Assembly: GCA_947492905.1 (NCBI GenBank)
Contig: CANLOL010000001.1
Coordinates: forward strand, 1,776,578 to 1,840,577
Source: an uncultured Sphingorhabdus sp.
GTDB taxonomy: Bacteria; Pseudomonadota; Alphaproteobacteria; Sphingomonadales; Sphingomonadaceae
Length of the DNA: 64,000 bases
Reading direction: 5' to 3'
How positions within the stretch are numbered: position 1 is the first letter of the stretch; each line of letters begins with the position of its first letter. The position numbers and the translations under genes were made by a program. Positions 4,306 to 48,014 of this stretch are shown in pieces. A model generated the notes under the pieces. It made no database searches. It had not been told where the DNA came from and saw only the letters and a program-made list of their open reading frames with translations.

Positions 4306-4815
4306 TCAATCGTTTGACACCTTCAATATAGCAGAAAACTCTTGGGCCAAATTCTGGTAAATTATGCGCTTAAAGGGAACAATATTGTCGGCCAAAGCGT
4401 CTATTTTGCTCCATTTCCACTCGCTAAATTCGGGGATTTCAGTATCAATATTAATATCTTTATCCTCCCCTAAGTAACGCATAAGAAACCAATATTGCCT
4501 CTGGCCGCGCCATTTGCCTTTCCATAATTTGCCCAATAATTCTGCGGGCAATTCATAAAAATGCTCTTCTTTGCTCTGTGCAATTAATTCTACTGAATCT
4601 GCGGCAACACCCGTTTCTTCTTCTAATTCCCGAAAAGCAGCATCTTGCGCATCTTCACCCTCATCTATGCCGCCTTGGGGCATTTGCCACGCATCTTTCC
4701 ATTTGCTGGTACGATTATCATTACGCTTGGCCACGAAAACTTGATTATCGGCATTGACCAACATTATCCCGACGCATGGACGGTAAGGCAGATGCGCATA
4801 TTTTTCATCAATCAT
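4306..4815 (-). CDS. rppH: RNA pyrophosphohydrolase (Nudix)
   Basis: Removes pyrophosphate from triphosphorylated mRNA 5' ends and so begins RNA decay; in alphaproteobacteria the same family (IalA/NudH) also acts on dinucleoside polyphosphates. The Nudix box GGIDEGEDAQDAAF followed by RELEEETGV is complete (about residues 48-70), and the start MIDEKYAHLPYRPCVG and the QYWFLMRYLG segment are typical of RppH. The 169-residue length is standard. It is transcribed away from korA, with about 150 nt of shared upstream DNA. A true start at 4815 is supported by the conserved N-terminal block LPYRPCVGIML. Confidence 0.93.
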   Translation of the reverse strand: MIDEKYAHLPYRPCVGIMLVNADNQVFVAKRNDNRTSKWKDAWQMPQGGIDEGEDAQDAAFRELEEETGVAADSVELIAQSKEEHFYELPAELLGKLWKGKWRGQRQYWFLMRYLGEDKDINIDTEIPEFSEWKWSKIDALADNIVPFKRIIYQNLAQEFSAILKVSND

Positions 4816-4965
4816 GGTTTTTTGCTCTATATTTATGACATTAATCGCGATAGCGTGCCTATAGCATAAATATTGATATTGCTAGGCAACAGATTTTCTA
4901 AATTGCATAATGATAAATGCTTTAATAGAGAGAATGCTTAAAAGATTGAACGGGTAGGAATATAT

Positions 4966-6828
4966 ATGGCAAGTGCTGCAAAAGAAGCAGGCAATGAACA
5001 AGAAGCAGTGGAATCCGTTGTTGTTCGTTTCGCAGGGGATAGCGGCGATGGTATGCAGCTTACGGGCGGGCAATTTACGCTATCAACCGCTTTGGCTGGC
5101 AATGATTTGGCGACATTTCCTGATTTTCCAGCAGAGATAAGAGCGCCCCAAGGCACATTATTCGGTGTGTCCGCATTTCAGATTAATTTTGGCTCGCGCG
5201 CTATTCATACCGCCGGCGATCAACCTGATGTCCTCGTTGCCATGAATCCAGCGGCCTTAAAGGTCAATGTCGATAGTTTGAAACCTGGCGGCCTGATTAT
5301 CGCGGATAGCGGGGAATTTGGCAAAAGAAACCTCGATAAAGCCAAATATGAAACCAACCCTCTCGAAGATGGCTCGCTAGCTAAATGGCAATTGCTGGCC
5401 TTTGATATTTCGGCCTTAACATTAGAAGCCGTTAAGCCCTTTGGTCTTGGTAATAAAGAAGCCTTGCGTAGTAAAAATATGTGGACGCTTGGTCTTGCGC
5501 TTTGGATGTTCGACCGCGATCGCCAGCCTATTGTCGATTGGCTCAATAGCAAATTTGCCAAGAAACCCGAAATTGCCGAAGCCAATATAGCGGCGCTCAA
5601 TGCGGGTCATGCTTATGGTGAAACGGCTGAGCTTTCTGGCCCTGTCAAGCAAGCGGCTCTTCCCGCAGCACCCGCCGATCCTGGCCTTTACCGCACCGTG
5701 AATGGCGCAGAAGCCCTGTCATTGGGCTTGGTTGCTGGTGCGCAAATGGCGGACTTGCCCATGTTTTTTGGCGGTTATCCGATAACGCCTGCATCAGCAA
5801 TTTTGCACCATCTTTCGCGCCTAAAAGAATATGGCGTCACTACATTCCAAGCCGAAGATGAAATCGCCGCTATCGCATCTGCTATTGGTGCAAGCTATGC
5901 TGGAACATTGGGCGTTACATCATCATCTGGCCCCGGTATTGCCCTAAAAGGCGAGGCGATGGGCCTAGCGATTATGACCGAATTACCCTTGGTTATCGTC
6001 AATTCACAGCGCGGTGGCCCTTCTACGGGACTGCCGACAAAAACCGAACAATCGGATCTGTATCAAGCCGTTTATGGCCGCAATGGTGATGCGCCGATGC
6101 CCGTTATTTCGGCCCGCTCGCCATCCGATGCGTTTGAATGTGCGATAGAGGCGGTGCGCATTGCAACGCAATATATGACGCCCGTTATGCTGCTGACTGA
6201 TGGTTATATTGCCAATGCAGCCGAGCCTTGGCTCGTTCCAGATATGGGGGATTATACAGAATTTCCTGTAGAGCATATGACGCAGGCTCAAGAAGATGGA
6301 TTTAAGCCCTATGGCCGCGATGAAAAATTAGCGCGTCCTTGGGTCAAGCCCGGCACACCCGAATTGATGCACCGTATTGGCGGCATCGAAAAAGGGGTGG
6401 ACACGGGCCATATTGATTATGGCAGCGAAAACCATCAAGAAATGACCAATATTCGCCGCGATAAAGTGCTCGGCGTTGCGGATAGCATTGGCGACCAAGA
6501 GGTGGAGCTTGGCGTGGCAGGCGGTAAATTGGCGCTGATTGGTTGGGGGTCGACCTATGGCCCTATCCATCAAGCGGTGAACCGTTGCCGCGAAAAAGAC
6601 ATGGACGTAAGCCATATTCATTTGCGTTATATTTGGCCTATGCCCAAAAATCTGGGGGATTTGCTGAAAAGCTATGATCATGTGATTGTCCCTGAAATGA
6701 ACACAGGACAGCTTAAAACTGTGCTCCGCGATCAATATTTGGTTGATGCGAAGCCTTTGAACAAGGTTTCGGGCCAGCCTTTTACCATCGCAGAAATTGA
6801 AACAGCCATAGCGGAGGCGCTATCATGA
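4966..6828 (+). CDS. korA: 2-oxoacid:ferredoxin oxidoreductase, fused gamma-alpha subunit
   Basis: With KorB it oxidatively decarboxylates a 2-oxoacid (probably 2-oxoglutarate) with CoA and ferredoxin. Residues 1-190 form the gamma domain (RFAGDSGDGMQLTGGQF start), followed by the alpha domain beginning near residue 235 with the YPITPASAILHHL motif and the EDEIAAIASAIGA block. Fusion of gamma and alpha in one chain of about 620 residues is the usual architecture of the two-subunit aerobic enzymes. RBS GGTAGGA precedes the ATG. It overlaps korB by 4 nt (ATGA), so the two are translationally coupled. Substrate preference between 2-oxoglutarate and pyruvate cannot be read from sequence alone. 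Confidence 0.92.
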   Translation: MASAAKEAGNEQEAVESVVVRFAGDSGDGMQLTGGQFTLSTALAGNDLATFPDFPAEIRAPQGTLFGVSAFQINFGSRAIHTAGDQPDVLVAMNPAALKVNVDSLKPGGLIIADSGEFGKRNLDKAKYETNPLEDGSLAKWQLLAFDISALTLEAVKPFGLGNKEALRSKNMWTLGLALWMFDRDRQPIVDWLNSKFAKKPEIAEANIAALNAGHAYGETAELSGPVKQAALPAAPADPGLYRTVNGAEALSLGLVAGAQMADLPMFFGGYPITPASAILHHLSRLKEYGVTTFQAEDEIAAIASAIGASYAGTLGVTSSSGPGIALKGEAMGLAIMTELPLVIVNSQRGGPSTGLPTKTEQSDLYQAVYGRNGDAPMPVISARSPSDAFECAIEAVRIATQYMTPVMLLTDGYIANAAEPWLVPDMGDYTEFPVEHMTQAQEDGFKPYGRDEKLARPWVKPGTPELMHRIGGIEKGVDTGHIDYGSENHQEMTNIRRDKVLGVADSIGDQEVELGVAGGKLALIGWGSTYGPIHQAVNRCREKDMDVSHIHLRYIWPMPKNLGDLLKSYDHVIVPEMNTGQLKTVLRDQYLVDAKPLNKVSGQPFTIAEIETAIAEALS

Positions 6829-7856
6829 ATGAGATTACGAAAATCGAAACGACCCTAAAAGATTGGGAAACGGACCAAGAAGTACGTTGGTGTCCTGGGT
6901 GCGGTGATTATGCGATCCTAAAGGCTGTGCAGCGCACTATGCCGATGATTGGCGGCAGCCCTGCTAATACGGTTTTTGTGTCAGGCATTGGCTGTTCGAG
7001 CCGCTTTCCCTATTATATGGAGACTTATGGTTTTCATACGATACACGGCCGAGCACCCGCCGTTGCAACGGGAGTAAAGCTTGCCAATCCTGAATTGGAT
7101 GTTTGGATTATCACGGGTGATGGCGATGCCCTCTCAATTGGCGGTAATCACACAATGCATGTGCTGCGCCGTAACCTAAATTGCCAAATAATGTTGTTTA
7201 ACAATGAAATTTATGGCCTAACCAAAGGGCAATATTCGCCTACATCGCGCGAAGGCACCAACAGCCCATCTACCCCTTATGGTAGCGTCGATCATCCTGC
7301 TAGCCCCTGCGCTTTTGCGCTGGGTTCAGGTGCGCGTTTTGTTGCACGCGGCATTGATATAAATAAGAATTTACCTGATGTTTTGATGGCCGCACATGCG
7401 CATCAAGGCGCAGCATTTATTGAGATTTTTCAAAACTGTATAGTTTATAATAAAGATGTTTTCGAGGATTTTGCGGCCAAGAAAACCGCCGCCGCAACAC
7501 AGCTTTGGCTCGCCAATGGTGAACCTATGTTGTTTGAAAAAGGCGAAAAGGGCATCGCATTAGACCAAGATACAATGGCATTGAAAGTCGTTGATGTCGT
7601 GGATGGCGATTGGGAAGCTGCTGGCGTGTTGCGTCATGAAGTCACAAATCGCAGCTTAGCACATATGCTAGTTGAGCTTCAATTTGGTGAATTTCCAATG
7701 CCGCTTGGCGTAATTTATGATGATCCAAAACCAACTTTTGAAAGTGCTGTTGTCGCGCAAAATGAAGCCATTGCCGCAAATAAGAAACCTGATTTGCAAG
7801 CTTTGGTGAGCAAAGGACAGACTTGGACAGTAACTGAGGACGGCCCTGATTTGTGA
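6825..7856 (+). CDS. korB: 2-oxoacid:ferredoxin oxidoreductase, beta (TPP) subunit
   Basis: Thiamine-diphosphate-binding beta subunit partnering the preceding KorA. The CxxC pair in RWCPGCGDYAIL and the later cysteine in GIGCSSRFPYYM are expected ligands of the [4Fe-4S] cluster. The TPP/Mg motif is the GDGDALSIGGNH segment followed by NNEIYGLTKGQYSPTS. Length 343 residues is normal. No separate ferredoxin-like delta subunit is adjacent, so electrons must go to a ferredoxin encoded elsewhere. Its TGA overlaps a GTG that begins the next small gene. Assignment as Kor rather than Por is by overall resemblance and is less certain than the family. Confidence 0.92.
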   Translation: MNEITKIETTLKDWETDQEVRWCPGCGDYAILKAVQRTMPMIGGSPANTVFVSGIGCSSRFPYYMETYGFHTIHGRAPAVATGVKLANPELDVWIITGDGDALSIGGNHTMHVLRRNLNCQIMLFNNEIYGLTKGQYSPTSREGTNSPSTPYGSVDHPASPCAFALGSGARFVARGIDINKNLPDVLMAAHAHQGAAFIEIFQNCIVYNKDVFEDFAAKKTAAATQLWLANGEPMLFEKGEKGIALDQDTMALKVVDVVDGDWEAAGVLRHEVTNRSLAHMLVELQFGEFPMPLGVIYDDPKPTFESAVVAQNEAIAANKKPDLQALVSKGQTWTVTEDGPDL

Positions 7857-43224: not shown

Positions 43225-43629
43225 TCACAAATAGCGTTTTGCCGTTTCTTGGATTAGAGCAATCATATTCGGTATGCCTTGCGTACGATTGGATGATAAT
43301 TGCGCCGTCAAATTAAACGGAGCAAGCTTCTCTTTAATATCCACTTTAGAAATATCAGCGGCGCTTTTATTTTGCACAGACAGCAGCACAAGCGCGATAA
43401 TCCCTTTGGTAATAGAGGCATTACTATCGGCTAGGAAATTCAGGCTGCCATCATCATTTTGCGTTGGGTAAACCCATACTGATGCACTGCATCCGCGCAC
43501 TAAGGTTGCATCATTTTTGAGCGCCTCTGGCATTTCGGGCAGCTCGCGGCCCAAATCTATCAATAAACGATAGCGGTCATCTGCATCTAAAAAGTCATAT
43601 TCTTCATATATATCATCAAATTTGCTCAT
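43225..43629 (-). CDS. sufE: Cysteine desulfuration protein SufE
   Basis: Accepts sulfur from a SufS-type desulfurase for Fe-S cluster assembly. The active cysteine is Cys47 in LVRGCSASVWV. Length 134 residues and the YEEYDFLDADDRYRLLIDLG opening are typical. No sufBCDS gene is adjacent. It is transcribed in the same direction as the psp small genes that lie upstream, 57 nt from the last of them. Confidence 0.94.
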   Translation of the reverse strand: MSKFDDIYEEYDFLDADDRYRLLIDLGRELPEMPEALKNDATLVRGCSASVWVYPTQNDDGSLNFLADSNASITKGIIALVLLSVQNKSAADISKVDIKEKLAPFNLTAQLSSNRTQGIPNMIALIQETAKRYL

Positions 43630-43685: not shown

Positions 43686-43931
43686 CTATATATCAATGCC
43701 CGCTGCGATAGCTTCTAGCTTGCGCACGCGCTCTTTCAAATCGGCAACTTCGATACGCGACATGGTGGATGGTTCATTATGACTATTATCATCTTGTAGA
43801 TTGTTCAGCTCTGATCTTTTAAGATCAATCCATTGGTTCCACATACGAACCACTGTATATGCTGTCACGAGCAAAGCAAAAAGGCTTACGCTGGCGAAGG
43901 CGATATAAAAATTGGCGTCTTGGTTCATCAT
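43686..43931 (-). CDS. PspB-like small membrane protein (last of array)
   Basis: 81 residues. One membrane helix (FYIAFASVSLFALLVTAYTV) near the N-terminus, then a short basic segment (RMWNQWIDLKR) and a C-terminal heptad-like coil (VADLKERVRKLEAIAAG). The RVRKLEAI core is close to the PspB C-terminus (RxRxxxLExI). It lacks the EIxxLR end seen in its neighbours. RBS AAAGGAG lies right before the ATG. Shares operon orientation with four other small genes; likely partner of PspA/PspC at the inner membrane, but function is inferred. Confidence 0.7.
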   Translation of the reverse strand: MMNQDANFYIAFASVSLFALLVTAYTVVRMWNQWIDLKRSELNNLQDDNSHNEPSTMSRIEVADLKERVRKLEAIAAGIDI

Positions 43932-43963
43932 AAACTCCTTTCCTATTTTCCACTAATCTCAGA

Positions 43964-44224
43964 TTATGTGTTACGCAGGCTTTCGATTTCGCGATCAAGG
44001 TCAATCGCTTTATTATTGTCGGTAACGATACGTTCTAATATTTGAACACGTTCTTTTAAGTCTCTAATTTCTTGTTGTTGCTTGCTATTTTCTTGAGGGA
44101 TTAGGAGACTTTTATCACCTTTTTTATCTTCCACCATGCCATGCTTAGCTAAATGTTTGGTACGAAATATGCTGCCGATAGTGACTATGATGACGATGGC
44201 TACTACCATTTCAAACGGATTCAT
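43964..44224 (-). CDS. Psp-array small membrane protein with EIxxLR tail
   Basis: 86 residues with an N-terminal membrane helix (MVVAIVIIVTIGSIFRT) and a charged coil. The tail RVQILERIVTD followed by REIESLR matches the tails of the proteins at 44239, 44526, 44873 and of PspC. RBS AAGGAA is 9 nt from the start. No named family is recognised beyond this PspB/PspC-like coil. Part of the psp array. Confidence 0.7.
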   Translation of the reverse strand: MNPFEMVVAIVIIVTIGSIFRTKHLAKHGMVEDKKGDKSLLIPQENSKQQQEIRDLKERVQILERIVTDNNKAIDLDREIESLRNT

Positions 44225-44238
44225 GTGGGCTTTCCTTA

Positions 44239-44514
44239 TTAATTTAGGGGTTTATCGCGCAGATCTTCTATTTCATTTGCGAGGCTAGAGGCTTTATCAG
44301 TTACTAATCGTTCTAAGACTTGAACGCGTTTTTCTAAATAGTCGGTTTTAGCGGCATATTGCGCCGTTTTTTCAGCAGCCATTTCCGATTGGAGCTTAAG
44401 CTGCTCACGCTTAAATTCTATCCATGGTCTGACATAAATTTTACCAACAACGGCAATAATGCCTAATGATATACCCATGATAATGGATGTTAATGGTATA
44501 AGTATCGGATCCAT
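44239..44514 (-). CDS. Psp-array small membrane protein with EIxxLR tail
   Basis: 91 residues. Membrane helix near the N-terminus (LTSIIMGISLGIIAVVGKIY), then a basic amphipathic stretch (RPWIEFKREQLKLQSE) and the shared tail RVQVLERLVTD with NEIEDLR. RBS AAAGGAC precedes ATG. The IEFKREQL part parallels IDLKRSEL in the 81-residue protein, supporting a common origin. No catalytic motif. Confidence 0.7.
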   Translation of the reverse strand: MDPILIPLTSIIMGISLGIIAVVGKIYVRPWIEFKREQLKLQSEMAAEKTAQYAAKTDYLEKRVQVLERLVTDKASSLANEIEDLRDKPLN

Positions 44515-44525
44515 TTTTATGTCCT

Positions 44526-44864
44526 TTAATGCTTTGGTTCGCGCAAAGCTTCGATTTCACTGGTTAATTTATGCGTGTCATCAACAATGATTTTTTCAAC
44601 ATTCGCCATACGATCTTTTATTGAGCCCAATTCGGCGCGTAATTGCGCATTTTCTTGGCTTAATAATTTTACGCGCTCGGCTGCTTCTTGATCGGTTTTG
44701 GGATATACTGCTTGTCCCCATGCGCCATCTAATGGATAGCCATTTTTGATGCGCAATCTGGTTGTATAAATCCATCCTGCTATTCCAGCAGCGGCAATGG
44801 TCAATCCTCCAAATACAATGGCGGGTATATAGGGTATTATTGTGGCGGCGGCGTCTACTGACAT
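44526..44864 (-). CDS. Psp-array small membrane protein with EIxxLR tail
   Basis: 112 residues, the longest of the array. A membrane helix (AIVFGGLTIAAAGIAGWIYT) is followed by a loop RIKNGYPLDGAWGQAV similar to RARHGYALEDEWGGKT in the 96-residue neighbour, and by a coiled coil with the tail RMANVEKIIVD and SEIEALR. Start preceded by AGGAACC. These similarities show duplication from a common ancestor. Confidence 0.7.
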   Translation of the reverse strand: MSVDAAATIIPYIPAIVFGGLTIAAAGIAGWIYTTRLRIKNGYPLDGAWGQAVYPKTDQEAAERVKLLSQENAQLRAELGSIKDRMANVEKIIVDDTHKLTSEIEALREPKH

Positions 44865-44872
44865 TATGGTTC

Positions 44873-45163
44873 CTATCTTAAATTTTCTATTTCTTCAGAA
44901 AGACGCGAAGATGAGTCGGTGGCGATACGTTCTAAAACTGCAATACGCTCTTCTAAATGGGATATTTTTCCCGTTAGATTTTCATTTTCATTTGTGAGCA
45001 ATTCAATTTTGCGTTCAGTATCTGGTGAAGAAGGACCAGTTTTTCCGCCCCATTCATCCTCTAATGCATAGCCATGCCGTGCACGGAGCCAATTGTTAAT
45101 CAGCCAACCACCGGTTGAAATTGCGATGATAGCTATAACAAAAAATGGACTTCCCCAACTCAT
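44873..45163 (-). CDS. Psp-array small membrane protein with EIxxLR tail
   Basis: 96 residues. Short N-terminal helix (FFVIAIIAISTGGWLI), a GYALEDEWGG loop, and a coil ending RIAVLERIATD with EEIENLR at the very C-terminus. Strong RBS AGGAGG upstream. First gene after pspC, 22 nt behind it. Paralogous to the 112-residue protein through the GYxL..xWG loop. Confidence 0.72.
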   Translation of the reverse strand: MSWGSPFFVIAIIAISTGGWLINNWLRARHGYALEDEWGGKTGPSSPDTERKIELLTNENENLTGKISHLEERIAVLERIATDSSSRLSEEIENLR

Positions 45164-45184
45164 ATATTCCTCCTGATTTTATAA

Positions 45185-45565
45185 TTAACGTAAGCTATCG
45201 ATTTCATCGGCCAGCTGTTTATTGCTGCTGGTGTAGTAAATTTCTAAATCAGCAAGACGGTGATCTATTTCTCTGAAATGAGATTTTAATTCGCGTGTCG
45301 TCCGTGCAGGGGATTGACGCACACCTTGCCAAAATTTTTGTTGCTGAGCATCTTCATAGAGATGAAGCGGTTTCTTATCGCCAAGCATGGCTGCCGCTAC
45401 ATAGGCTATTAAGGTCCATGGAAATCCACCCATAAATGTCAACAAGACTGCGCCTAAACGTATCCATGTTGAATCAATTCCGGTATAATCTGCAATTCCA
45501 GCGCAGACGCCTTTCCATTTGGCATTTTGCTTATCGAGGTAAAACTTGGTTCTATCACTAGCCAT
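45185..45565 (-). CDS. pspC: Phage-shock protein C (PspC domain)
   Basis: Inner-membrane PspC-family protein; relieves PspA repression and protects the membrane. Start at 45565 has GGGAGG at optimal distance; the frame to 45631 lies in pspB. The PspC domain is residues 1-65 (WKGVCAGIADYTGIDSTWIR, a membrane helix with TFMGGFPWTLIAYVAAAML). A C-terminal coil has RLADLEIYYTS and ends DEIDSLR, the same ending as the small genes downstream. The start codon lies 2 nt beyond the pspB stop. Confidence 0.9.
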   Translation of the reverse strand: MASDRTKFYLDKQNAKWKGVCAGIADYTGIDSTWIRLGAVLLTFMGGFPWTLIAYVAAAMLGDKKPLHLYEDAQQQKFWQGVRQSPARTTRELKSHFREIDHRLADLEIYYTSSNKQLADEIDSLR

Positions 45566-45566
45566 C

Positions 45567-45857
45567 TTACTTCCTCCCTTCGGCTTGATTTTCATCACGG
45601 GTAATAAATTTCTGCCTATCGTCATTGGCAATGCGGCGCGGTGTCCATTCTGGATTCTCTTGCGCGGTTAGGCGTTCTACAGTTTCAAGGCGCTCTTCCA
45701 GACGGCGGCTAAGAGCGTTCATTTCCTCTAGCACCCGTTCATCATCGTTGGTGAGTGTAGCCGCTGTCTTCCATTTGGTAACATAATGAAATATCAACCA
45801 AGGCAAGCCTATGAACAATACTCCAAAAAGGCTAATGGGAACAAAAATACCTTCCAT
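45567..45857 (-). CDS. pspB: Phage-shock protein B
   Basis: Small inner-membrane PspB-like protein of 96 residues. A membrane helix (FVPISLFGVLFIGLPWLIFH) is followed by a cytosolic coil (RVLEEMNALSRRLEERLETV) and NPEW, close to E. coli PspB. With PspC it senses membrane stress and recruits PspA. RBS AAGGGAG precedes its ATG; it lies directly behind pspA. Confidence 0.88.
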   Translation of the reverse strand: MEGIFVPISLFGVLFIGLPWLIFHYVTKWKTAATLTNDDERVLEEMNALSRRLEERLETVERLTAQENPEWTPRRIANDDRQKFITRDENQAEGRK

Positions 45858-45860
45858 CTC

Positions 45861-46538
45861 TTATACTCCCTTCTTTGTATCTAATGCTTTTTTCATGGCT
45901 TCTAATTCTTCATCAATCTCATCGACGGATTCCAGCGCAGCGATTTCATCGCCAAGGCTTTGTGGGCCTTCATTGCCCATGCCCAATGCTTCGGCACGCC
46001 CTTCAGTATAATCAACCTCGCGTTCCAACACATCAAATCGCGAGAATGCTTCTTGGACCTTATCGCCATTATACATAGTGCGTAATTTTACTCTGTTTTC
46101 GGCGCTTTCCAAGCGAGTCATCAATCCATTTTGTCGTGATCGTGCATCGGCTAATTTCTTTTGCAGCATCGAAATATCTTTTTCATTGGCGCTCAGAGCA
46201 TCGCTTAATACAGCAACCTCTGCGCTGAGTTGAAAATGCATTTCGCTGGCTTTGCGTTTTTCGACCAATGCTGCTTTTGCTAAATCTTCGCGGCCTTTAG
46301 ACAGGGCCAATTGCGCTTTGTCTGTCCAATCATTTTGCAGCGCATCTAATTTTTCAATATGGCGGGTTAATTCTTTTTTATCCGCAATTGTTCTGGCAGC
46401 AGAGGCACGAACTTCGACCAATGTTTCTTCCATTTCCAAAATTATCATGCGGATCATTTTGGTAGGATCTTCTGATTTGTCGAGCATGTCGGCAAAGTTG
46501 GCGGCGACTATGTCGCGTGTTCGTGAAAATATACCCAT
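45861..46538 (-). CDS. pspA: Phage-shock protein A
   Basis: Peripheral membrane ESCRT-III-like protein that stabilises stressed inner membrane and inhibits PspF. Begins MGIFSRTRDIVAANFADMLD, the amphipathic N-helix typical of PspA/Vipp1, and consists of long helices (MIRMIILEMEETLVEVRASA) ending with ALDTKKGV. Start at 46538 is chosen because it gives the standard N-terminus and GGAG lies 7 nt upstream. The frame continues open to 46775; that 79-codon extension is treated separately. Confidence 0.95.
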   Translation of the reverse strand: MGIFSRTRDIVAANFADMLDKSEDPTKMIRMIILEMEETLVEVRASAARTIADKKELTRHIEKLDALQNDWTDKAQLALSKGREDLAKAALVEKRKASEMHFQLSAEVAVLSDALSANEKDISMLQKKLADARSRQNGLMTRLESAENRVKLRTMYNGDKVQEAFSRFDVLEREVDYTEGRAEALGMGNEGPQSLGDEIAALESVDEIDEELEAMKKALDTKKGV

Positions 46539-46943
46539 AGGGAAACTCCGTTTTGTTTGTAGGTATTGGCGAGAATATTCTTTATCTTTATAGACGGGCG
46601 CGATCAGAGCCAAGCTTTTTTGAGAGGCATTTGGAGAGAGAGGTTGAGCCTCATTTTGGGGGATTGGCACTAGCTCTGATCGCACATCCGGGCCGCTAAG
46701 TGAATTTTGATGAGCGTTTGGGGACATTTCACTTGAGGGCCCAGAAGGTGTATTGCTAGATATGTTGCTGTTCATTGCTTTTACTTTCTATCGTCTCACC
46801 CCATGTTTAAGTGAACTTAGCCATTACTTATCAAGAAGCGTGCCAATTTTTAAGATATTGAAATATATAGATAAAGCAATATTTCTGAAATTTACATATA
46901 GTATTTATTGCTAATATTCTGAATTTAATGCTAATGTTTGGGA
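46539..46943. other. 405-nt psp control region with in-frame pspA extension
   Basis: Region between pspA and pspF start codons. It holds a sigma-54 promoter facing pspA and, between it and pspA, about 280 nt of leader. From 46775 to 46539 that leader is open in the pspA frame (79 codons, rich in Ser, Asn, Pro and Gln), with only a weak RBS for the ATG at 46775. Beyond the promoter, to 46937, DNA is AT-rich and probably carries PspF enhancer sites. No RNA gene was recognised. Confidence 0.55.
46831..46845 (-). promoter_or_regulatory. Sigma-54 promoter for the psp operon
   Basis: On the minus strand TGGCACGCTTCTTGA (46845-46831) matches TGGCAC-N5-TTGC at the -24 element perfectly and at the -12 in TTG, with A for C. 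It points toward pspA. A PspF-type activator with the GAFTGA loop is encoded divergently about 100 nt away. RpoN itself is not in the window. Confidence 0.75.
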
Positions 46944-48014
46944 ATGGAACGCGCGAGTCAATTTATTGGACAATCAACTGCATTTTTGGATGCCTTAGAT
47001 CGCGCTAGCCAAGCCGCGACCCTAGAACGGCCCGTTTTGGTGGTTGGTGAGCGCGGTACAGGCAAGGAATTAATAGCCGAGAGACTGCATCGCTTAAGTT
47101 TGCGCTGGGATGGGCCTTTAATAACAATGAATTGTGCAGCTTTGCCAGAAACCTTAATAGAAGCCGAATTATTCGGCCATGAGGCAGGGGCTTTTACTGG
47201 AGCAACCAAAGCAAGAGCAGGGCGTTTTGAAGAAGCCGATGGCGGAACATTATTTTTGGATGAATTGGGAACGCTCTCTATGGGTGCGCAAGAGAGGTTA
47301 TTGCGCGCCGTTGAATATGGCGAAATCAACCGTATTGGTTCATCAAATCCCATCAGAGTTGATGTCCGTATAGTCGGTGCAACCAATGAGAATCTTCCTA
47401 AAATGGTGGATGATTATAGGTTTAGAGCTGATTTGCTCGACCGTTTATCATTTGAAGTAATTACCCTGCCTCCATTGCGCGCGCGCGATGGTGATGTAGA
47501 AGTATTGGCCGATCATTTTGGCCGCAGAATGGCCGCAGAATTAAGCTGGGATAGCTGGCCTGGTTTTGATGATATGGCTAAAAAAGAGTTAGACAATTAC
47601 GCTTGGCCCGGCAATGTGCGCGAATTGCGCAATGTGGTAGAGCGCGCCGTTTACCGATCTGGTAATGCCAATGTAGCGATTAACCGCATAGAGTTTGATC
47701 CCTTTGAGTCCATATGGACACCCAGTGGTTCGAACAATTCGGCGGCCTCTCCATTCCCGCCAAATAAACCTGATAATGATAGTATACCCCATAATGATGG
47801 CATCATTGAGAGTGAAGCAGTTCAAAGCAGTGAGCATGTTATCCCAGCCATTGATATTGATGATTTCCGCAAAGCATCGGAAACATATGAAAAAATGATA
47901 TTAGAAGCGGCTATGGAAAAGCATCGCTATAATCAGCGTCAAACCGCTGCTGCTCTAAATCTTAGCTATGATCAATTGCGCCATTGCCTTAAAAAATATG
48001 ATATGTTGGGTTGA
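46944..48014 (+). CDS. pspF: Sigma-54-dependent activator PspF
   Basis: AAA+ enhancer-binding protein that opens sigma-54 promoters. The central domain has Walker A GERGTGKE (about 35-42), the sigma-54 contact loop GAFTGA (82-87), and Walker B TLFLDELG. The C-terminal Fis-like helix-turn-helix is in YNQRQTAAALNLSYDQLRHC. There is no N-terminal sensor domain, which is the PspF hallmark; PspA controls it by direct binding. An upstream TTG at 46938 is an alternative start. Divergent from pspA. Confidence 0.93.
   Translation: MERASQFIGQSTAFLDALDRASQAATLERPVLVVGERGTGKELIAERLHRLSLRWDGPLITMNCAALPETLIEAELFGHEAGAFTGATKARAGRFEEADGGTLFLDELGTLSMGAQERLLRAVEYGEINRIGSSNPIRVDVRIVGATNENLPKMVDDYRFRADLLDRLSFEVITLPPLRARDGDVEVLADHFGRRMAAELSWDSWPGFDDMAKKELDNYAWPGNVRELRNVVERAVYRSGNANVAINRIEFDPFESIWTPSGSNNSAASPFPPNKPDNDSIPHNDGIIESEAVQSSEHVIPAIDIDDFRKASETYEKMILEAAMEKHRYNQRQTAAALNLSYDQLRHCLKKYDMLG

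Follow-up and report, generated by a model that had tools for sequence, protein, structure and literature searches.

An ordered array of PspB-like small membrane protein genes, candidate PspA-docking subunits, in the psp operon of sphingomonads

The window analysed here, a stretch of 64,000 nucleotides from contig CANLOL010000001.1 of an uncultured Sphingorhabdus sp., carries a phage-shock (psp) operon in which five consecutive minus-strand open reading frames (ORFs) of 96, 112, 91, 86 and 81 residues lie between pspC and sufE, at 45163-43686. These genes, hereafter g96, g112, g91, g86 and g81, had been noticed in a first-pass annotation and belong to an array whose members keep a fixed order in most loci of the window's family. 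On balance we favour the reading that they encode PspB-derived small membrane proteins, produced by tandem duplication and divergence, which would act as docking or signalling subunits for PspA alongside PspB and PspC. In the scheme that we put forward, a pspABC operon would have gained small membrane genes between pspC and sufE by tandem duplication and divergence. Envelope stress would then change the state of the membrane or juxtamembrane parts of the array proteins, whose tails would recruit PspA, and this recruitment would both free PspF and place PspA on the membrane.

The array genes and their order

The five ORFs are real genes, with ratios of nonsynonymous to synonymous substitution rates (dN/dS) of 0.09-0.17 against the nearest relative. 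With that reference, chosen by g112 (locus L133), dN/dS was 0.121 for g96, 0.156 for g112, 0.151 for g91, 0.094 for g86 and 0.173 for g81, next to 0.120 for pspA, 0.162 for pspB, 0.032 for pspC and 0.077 for sufE. When L037 served as the reference, the values were 0.058, 0.102 and 0.081 for g96, g112 and g91, synonymous sites being saturated in g86 and g81. Saturation also affected most ratios in two farther pairs, in which g81 gave 0.255 and 0.175; g91 was not found in L146, which belongs to one of the comparison pairs. A strong ribosome-binding site had been assigned to every gene, which by eye is true of g96 and g81, those of g112, g91 and g86 being moderate.

We assembled 81 psp loci, namely the window and 80 others hand-picked from different genera, each centred on a match to PspC or g112; 64 belong to the window's sphingomonad family and 17 to other families of the order. 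An ORF was counted as a small gene if it matched the tail at E<1 and lay on the pspC strand within 4.5 kb downstream of that gene. At least two such genes occur in 62/64 loci of the window's family (range 1-8, 287 genes in total), whereas 14/17 loci from the other families have none and the remaining three have one each. All 290 are co-directional with pspA, pspB and pspC and tightly packed (median gap 17 nt), and they stand beside these three genes in 64/64 loci of the window's family, a nearness that is partly by choice, since the loci were selected around PspC or g112 matches. Across the order, g112 or a near relative was found in 189/296 genomes (E<=1e-3) and 44/79 genera, PspC being present in 284/296 genomes. 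Among the best 80 of 385 g112-bearing loci are those of Sphingorhabdus, Sphingopyxis, Sphingomonas, Sphingobium, Novosphingobium, Erythrobacter, Qipengyuania, Stakelama, Blastomonas and others. At the level of the class, the profile of the g86 group matched 4/240 genomes, three of them from the window's family. In the genome from which the window comes, this locus was the only one matched by the g91 profile; a search with the single g91 sequence gave one extra match, at E=0.126, and profiles were used for counting instead.

Clustering of the 290 small proteins yielded five groups, each holding one gene of the window: g91 (group 0), g86 (group 1), g81 (group 2), g112 (group 3) and g96 (group 4). 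The order 0*-4*-3-0*-1-2, in which any group may be absent, fits 61/64 loci of the window's family, the exceptions being L072, L081 and L084. When genes were shuffled within loci the same order fitted 6.9 loci on average and 15 at most (2000 trials). Two single-gene loci fit trivially, and the pattern itself was drawn up with the data in view. The expectation that gene order is conserved in many genera is borne out, and the proposed growth by duplication is supported. Group 4 is present in 31/64 loci of the family, group 3 in 46/64, group 0 in 57/64 (87 copies), group 1 in 63/64 and group 2 in 58/64, where it is the last gene of the array in all 58. Each of the five products in the window is predicted to have one membrane helix. 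From pspC outward, g96 (44873..45163) has a HGYxLEDEWGG loop followed by a coil, and g112 (44526..44864) a KNGYPLDGAWG loop followed by a long helix. Next come g91 (44239..44514), with an EKxAQYA segment, and g86 (43964..44224), the most PspB-like of the five. Last is g81 (43686..43931), with the conserved end ADLKERVRKLEAIAAGIDI and a mean column identity of 47% in its group (25 sequences). The GYxL..xWG loop noted earlier in the 112- and 96-residue proteins is there and is largely conserved in their groups (GYPL..xWG in groups 3 and 4), while EKAAQYA marks group 0 and ADLKERIRKLEAIAxGVDL group 2. Because the groups keep a fixed order and motifs of their own, the earlier idea that the members are interchangeable is not supported.

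The downstream boundary of the array, sufE (43225..43629, minus strand; PF02657), has a match in 62/64 loci of the window's family. In the other families it was found in 8/17 loci, four times at 140-272 bases after pspC and four times at 1.5-3.9 kb, and no sufE was found in the stretch for 9/17. From these positions, pspABC-sufE may represent the earlier layout, with the array a later insertion.

A tail shared with PspB and PspC

The first-pass annotation had described a C-terminal pattern common to PspC and four of the five proteins. As written it fits no protein, being off by one in two places; with these spacings corrected, R[VIML]xx[LV]Exxxx[DS]x(6-9)EI[DE]xLR fits PspC, g96, g112, g91 and g86, as intended, and misses PspB and g81, which had been said to lack the EIxxLR end. 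The 81 loci contain 4566 ORFs, and of the 140 occurrences of the corrected pattern in these, 105 fall in the small genes, 35 in PspC and none elsewhere. In the window, all on the minus strand, the tails lie at 44876-44947 (g96), 44541-44612 (g112), 44257-44328 (g91) and 43973-44050 (g86); that of PspC, RLADLEIYYTSSNKQLADEIDSLR, is at 45188..45259, and a coil segment of PspB, RRLEERLETVERL at 45669..45707, corresponds to the first part of the shared tail.

A profile built from 119 small-gene tails, with neither PspB nor PspC included, was run on the same ORFs and recovered PspC in 67/81 loci and PspB in 59/81 at E<1. Outside these proteins and the array it matched 17 ORFs at that threshold, all of them PspA (best 0.0072); the positions in the protein differ among the matches listed, and we take these hits as coil noise. 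The 81 PspC tails scored a median of 12.5 bits against the small-gene profile, as compared with 0.9 for heptad-preserving shuffles and 4.7 for reversed tails; 69/81 lie above the shuffles' 95th percentile and 10/81 above every one of 1603 shuffles. For the PspB segments the corresponding counts are 81/81 and 39. The likeness of the small-gene tails to PspC and PspB thus exceeds chance. This bears on the suspicion that the array proteins are small membrane coils of no particular kind, alike by accident and without a Psp function. Short coils do match many unrelated coiled coils weakly, and 17 PspA ORFs are weak matches of the tail profile as well. Nevertheless, register-preserving shuffles and reversed tails score lower, the place and order of the array are fixed, and unlinked relatives co-occur with PspA (see below), and we consider such an origin very improbable.

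Profile-profile comparison links groups 0, 1, 3 and 4 to one another with probabilities of 98.7-99.9%, to PspB with 71.5-93.2% and to PspC with 85.1-93.8%, and links group 2 to groups 0 and 1 with 94%. Together with the shuffle controls, this agrees with the earlier proposal of one family with a PspB/PspC-type tail: a single tail superfamily of PspB, PspC and small genes is supported at the sequence level, group 2 being joined only through groups 0 and 1. In the family models, g96, g112, g91 and g86, and not g81, have sub-threshold matches to PspB or PspC, the best of the window's five being g86 (residues 4-71) against TIGR02976, with E=0.0035 and 17.6 bits for a cut-off of 51.7. The small proteins resemble PspB (PF06667, TIGR02976) in that one membrane helix at the N-terminus is followed by a coil, predicted to be cytosolic, whose core is RxxxxE. 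They differ at the end, where PspB carries xPx[WFY] (a pattern set by eye; 69/81 PspB against 1/290 small proteins) and most groups have EIxxL instead. The single small protein with the PspB end comes from L100, a locus of another family of the order in which a second PspB, ending in DAEVPGWR, follows pspC (minus strand, about 7371-7595 from the reversed end; ORF 2407-2631 on the reverse complement) and appears to be a plain PspB duplicate. With the C-terminal segment of PspC (TIGR02978 and NF007973, the latter a 119-position model that we take to represent PspC of the E. coli type) they share the tail, including the T[DS] and EI[DE]xLR positions; unlike PspC, none of the five array proteins matches the PspC domain PF04024.

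The layout of the small proteins is likewise consistent with PspB. Lysine and arginine are more numerous after the membrane helix than before it in 290/290, and a hydropathy peak above 1.6 is present in 279/290; since the basic residues come after the helix throughout, the tails should be cytosolic. The array proteins are thus predicted to have a single membrane helix with the N-terminus outside and the C-terminus inside. In the two AlphaFold2 models, those of g112 and PspC, the tail is helical; both are single-chain models, silent on partners. In the g112 model a helix at residues 3-40 is followed by a loop with a short helix and by a long helix, 58-108, that contains the tail. Its mean predicted local distance difference test score (pLDDT) is 79.5, with 82-96 in the ten-residue blocks from 61 to 110, and its predicted template modelling score (pTM) 0.37. 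For PspC the model has a helix at 86-125, in which the tail lies (mean pLDDT 71.9, pTM 0.46). Searches of PDB sequences with the PspC profile and with the window's PspB returned no PspB or PspC structure.

Relatives outside psp operons

The tail is also found away from psp genes, other Pseudomonadota carrying one or a few relatives outside their psp operons. The group-4 profile matched 26/299 genomes of the phylum, 13 from the window's family, two from another alphaproteobacterial family (f153) and 11 elsewhere. In 16 ten-kilobase stretches from the 13 genomes outside the window's family there was no match to the window's PspA, PspB, PspC, PspF or SufE at E<=1e-4, a search that could miss a diverged PspB. 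Ten relatives, nine unlinked proteins and one from the window's family (L245, below), were scanned against family models. The Pfam PspB model matched 9/10 at E<=0.022, always below its cut-off (best 24.0 against 25.6), and TIGR02976 reached 2.2e-10 with an unlinked relative, the best score among the ten being 40.7 bits, also below cut-off. The second half of the PspC models aligned with unlinked relatives at 1.3e-6 and 1.6e-6, again below cut-offs, the latter value being that of NF007973 positions 52-119.

A profile of the unlinked relatives (A6) matched 35/299 genomes of the phylum at E<=1e-4. Outside the window's family, 14 genomes carry a match unlinked to PspA (more than 5 kb away), and 14/14 have PspA over the cut-off, against a background of 29/286. 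In one order (that of genome G538) 40/124 genomes match at E<=1e-6 and 37 carry an unlinked match; PspA (E<=1e-40) is present in 36/37 of these and in 33/87 of the others (Fisher p=5.7e-11). Twelve of these genomes had already appeared in the sample of the phylum, and 11 of the 12 had contributed rows to A6; without them the counts are 24/25 versus 33/87 (p=7e-8). Since the genomes are related these p-values overstate the association; counted by family, among the families listed, PspA occurs in 8/8 with unlinked genes and 9/19 others (p=0.011). All match counts are lower bounds, a limited number of candidates having been scored per genome.

Some individual relatives deserve mention. At L245 (4228-4617), away from psp in a genome of the window's family (G030), the same tail stands behind a DUF6487-like N-terminus of zinc-ribbon appearance (PF20097, E=1.5e-4, 22.5 bits, cut-off 24), and no membrane helix is evident by eye. 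In L242 and L243, at about 4700-5400, a pair of neighbouring short tail genes lies close to coaBC- and dut-like genes (by eye); both come from an alphaproteobacterial family outside the order and have PspA elsewhere in the genome. At L228 (3832-5437) and L238 (about 4597-6195) the relatives adjoin genes that, by eye, resemble those of an extracytoplasmic function sigma factor and its partner membrane protein. A PDB search with the unlinked relatives brought up coiled coils of a generic sort, haemagglutinin stalks being frequent among them (E 0.004-1).

Possible roles and regulation

How PspB and PspC perceive stress and signal to PspA is a question on which the array may bear. As described in PMC3068692, leucine-zipper mutants of E. 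coli PspC, in the whole protein or a 40-119 fragment, lose the interaction with PspA and keep that with PspB; PspC 69-119 together with PspB induces psp, and its binding of PspA requires PspB. The zipper segment falls within the stretch aligned to the tails (NF007973 52-119). Because this zipper is needed for PspA binding in E. coli and lies inside the aligned segment, the array may, by analogy, supply further PspA-docking tails. The co-occurrence of unlinked relatives with PspA likewise lends indirect support to a link with PspA. Cytosolic array tails would fit a topology of PspC that lets its C-terminus reach PspA; for E. coli PspC the same source proposes two topologies. The row of proteins sharing this tail suggests a sphingomonad repair system with several membrane docking points, as opposed to two in E. 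coli.

A narrower role is conceivable, in which the tails build heteromers of PspB, PspC and array proteins only, PspC remains the sole binding partner of PspA, and the additional proteins adjust how abundant PspC is or how it is gated. In favour of this, helices are predicted for the tails of g112 and PspC, and PspB of E. coli associates with itself and with PspC (PMC3068692). However, according to the same source, the PspB-PspC and PspB-PspB contacts of E. coli are independent of the PspB zipper, and the partner lost by the PspC zipper mutants is PspA and not PspB; we regard this role as quite improbable.

It is possible, if unlikely, that the array proteins are effectors and not sensors, induced together with PspA and protecting the membrane or the proton-motive force in the manner of PspD and PspG, with the tail only keeping them near PspA or each other. 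PspD and PspG are small membrane proteins, and no model of either is among the Pfam and NCBIfam matches listed for the five array proteins. According to PMC9239133, PspD and PspG of Enterobacteria are additional members of the PspF regulon beyond PspA-C, as the array genes may be, and the E. coli operon runs pspABCDE, so that the array follows pspC in the position held there by pspD and pspE. Many loci have lost single members, which would also suit additive effectors. Against this, what the array proteins share with PspC is the very segment through which PspC signals to PspA (PMC3068692).

Returning to docking and signalling subunits derived from PspB, several observations weigh against that assignment. 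None of g96, g112, g91, g86 and g81 exceeds a Pfam or NCBIfam cut-off. Group 2 has profile-profile probabilities of 0.5% with PspB, 0.2% with PspC and 6% and 2% with groups 3 and 4, and g81 has no EIxxLR end; PspB and PspC themselves are linked directly at 23%. The co-occurrence with PspA is clustered in related genomes, with the family-level p of 0.011 given above, and one draft genome of 670 contigs (G829) carries an unlinked relative while lacking a PspA match at E<=1e-40. A sigma54-like site (shuffle p<0.05) lies upstream of only 5/17 unlinked relatives, their starts being approximated as 70 codons before the stop. Finally, in Yersinia a differing view (Gueguen et al., as cited in PMC3068692) holds that the zipper receives the signal.

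In print, the closest precedent that we found is a line in Ravi et al. 2024 (PMC11237479) on PspB duplicates in an operon (AOL22920.1), perhaps the same phenomenon as the array; the available text gives no groups, order, tail or copy number for it. The same work describes PspC fused to a divergent C-terminal PspB, and its main text, as available, contains neither "sphingo" nor "erythrobacter". PspB is reported from 26% of phyla in PMC9239133, whose available text does not contain "sphingo" either, and psp genes of Novosphingobium and Qipengyuania are merely mentioned in the available text of PMC5443232 and PMC9241875. No paper in the collection searched joined PspB, PspC and Sphingomonas, or pspA, Sphingomonadales and phage shock. 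Thus, PspB duplicates are already in print as one line. An array with a set order and distinct groups, nearly confined to one family, was not found in the literature searched, supplements aside, and neither was the tendency of unlinked relatives to occur together with PspA.

The divergent tail proteins, of which a locus may have as many as eight, offer together with the unlinked relatives many natural variants of the presumed PspA-docking segment, through which it is testable whether the tail alone makes the PspA contact and whether different membrane parts report different stresses. With rather less than even confidence, we extend this to a modular form of Psp sensing, in which a portable PspA-docking tail stands behind many membrane helices and even a zinc-ribbon-like domain. 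Sphingomonads would have a heteromeric array of specialised PspA receptors, with a division of labour between its groups, and many other Pseudomonadota would have unlinked receptors, so that a single PspA/PspF switch would be informed of different envelope stresses, each through a receptor of its own.

The remaining genes of the operon are assigned above model cut-offs. On the minus strand are pspC (45185..45565, ATG at 45565; TIGR02978, 124 bits, cut-off 104), pspB (45567..45857; TIGR02976, 78.8 bits, cut-off 51.7) and pspA (45861..46775; TIGR02977, 269 bits, cut-off 242.95); divergent from pspA, on the plus strand, is pspF, encoding a sigma54 activator (46938..48014; TIGR02974, 477 bits, cut-off 443.55). 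Between pspF and pspA, upstream of the latter, lies a -24/-12-like sigma54 site with one mismatch, TGGCACGCTTCTTGAT (46830..46845, minus strand), which scores 18.2. Over the whole window the number of such sites equals chance expectation; in the 450 nt upstream of the usual PspA start, sites of at least 17 of 20.7 occur in 63/81 loci, as compared with 7/81 controls inside pspC. Scans of the region for sigma70-type promoters and terminators came near shuffled expectation (12 vs 9.3 and 6 vs 4.1). The reality of an N-terminal extension of pspA is unsure: 79 in-frame codons (46539-46775) precede the usual MGIFSR start, and pN/pS against two near relatives is 0.154/0.309 and 0.243/0.413. Since selection is weaker here than over pspA as a whole, the extension may be leader rather than protein. 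The unlinked relatives with upstream sigma54-like sites are those of L230, L233, L235, L239 and L240, as if some of them belonged, like pspG, to a PspF regulon; these sites are suggestive, and we have kept them out of the argument.

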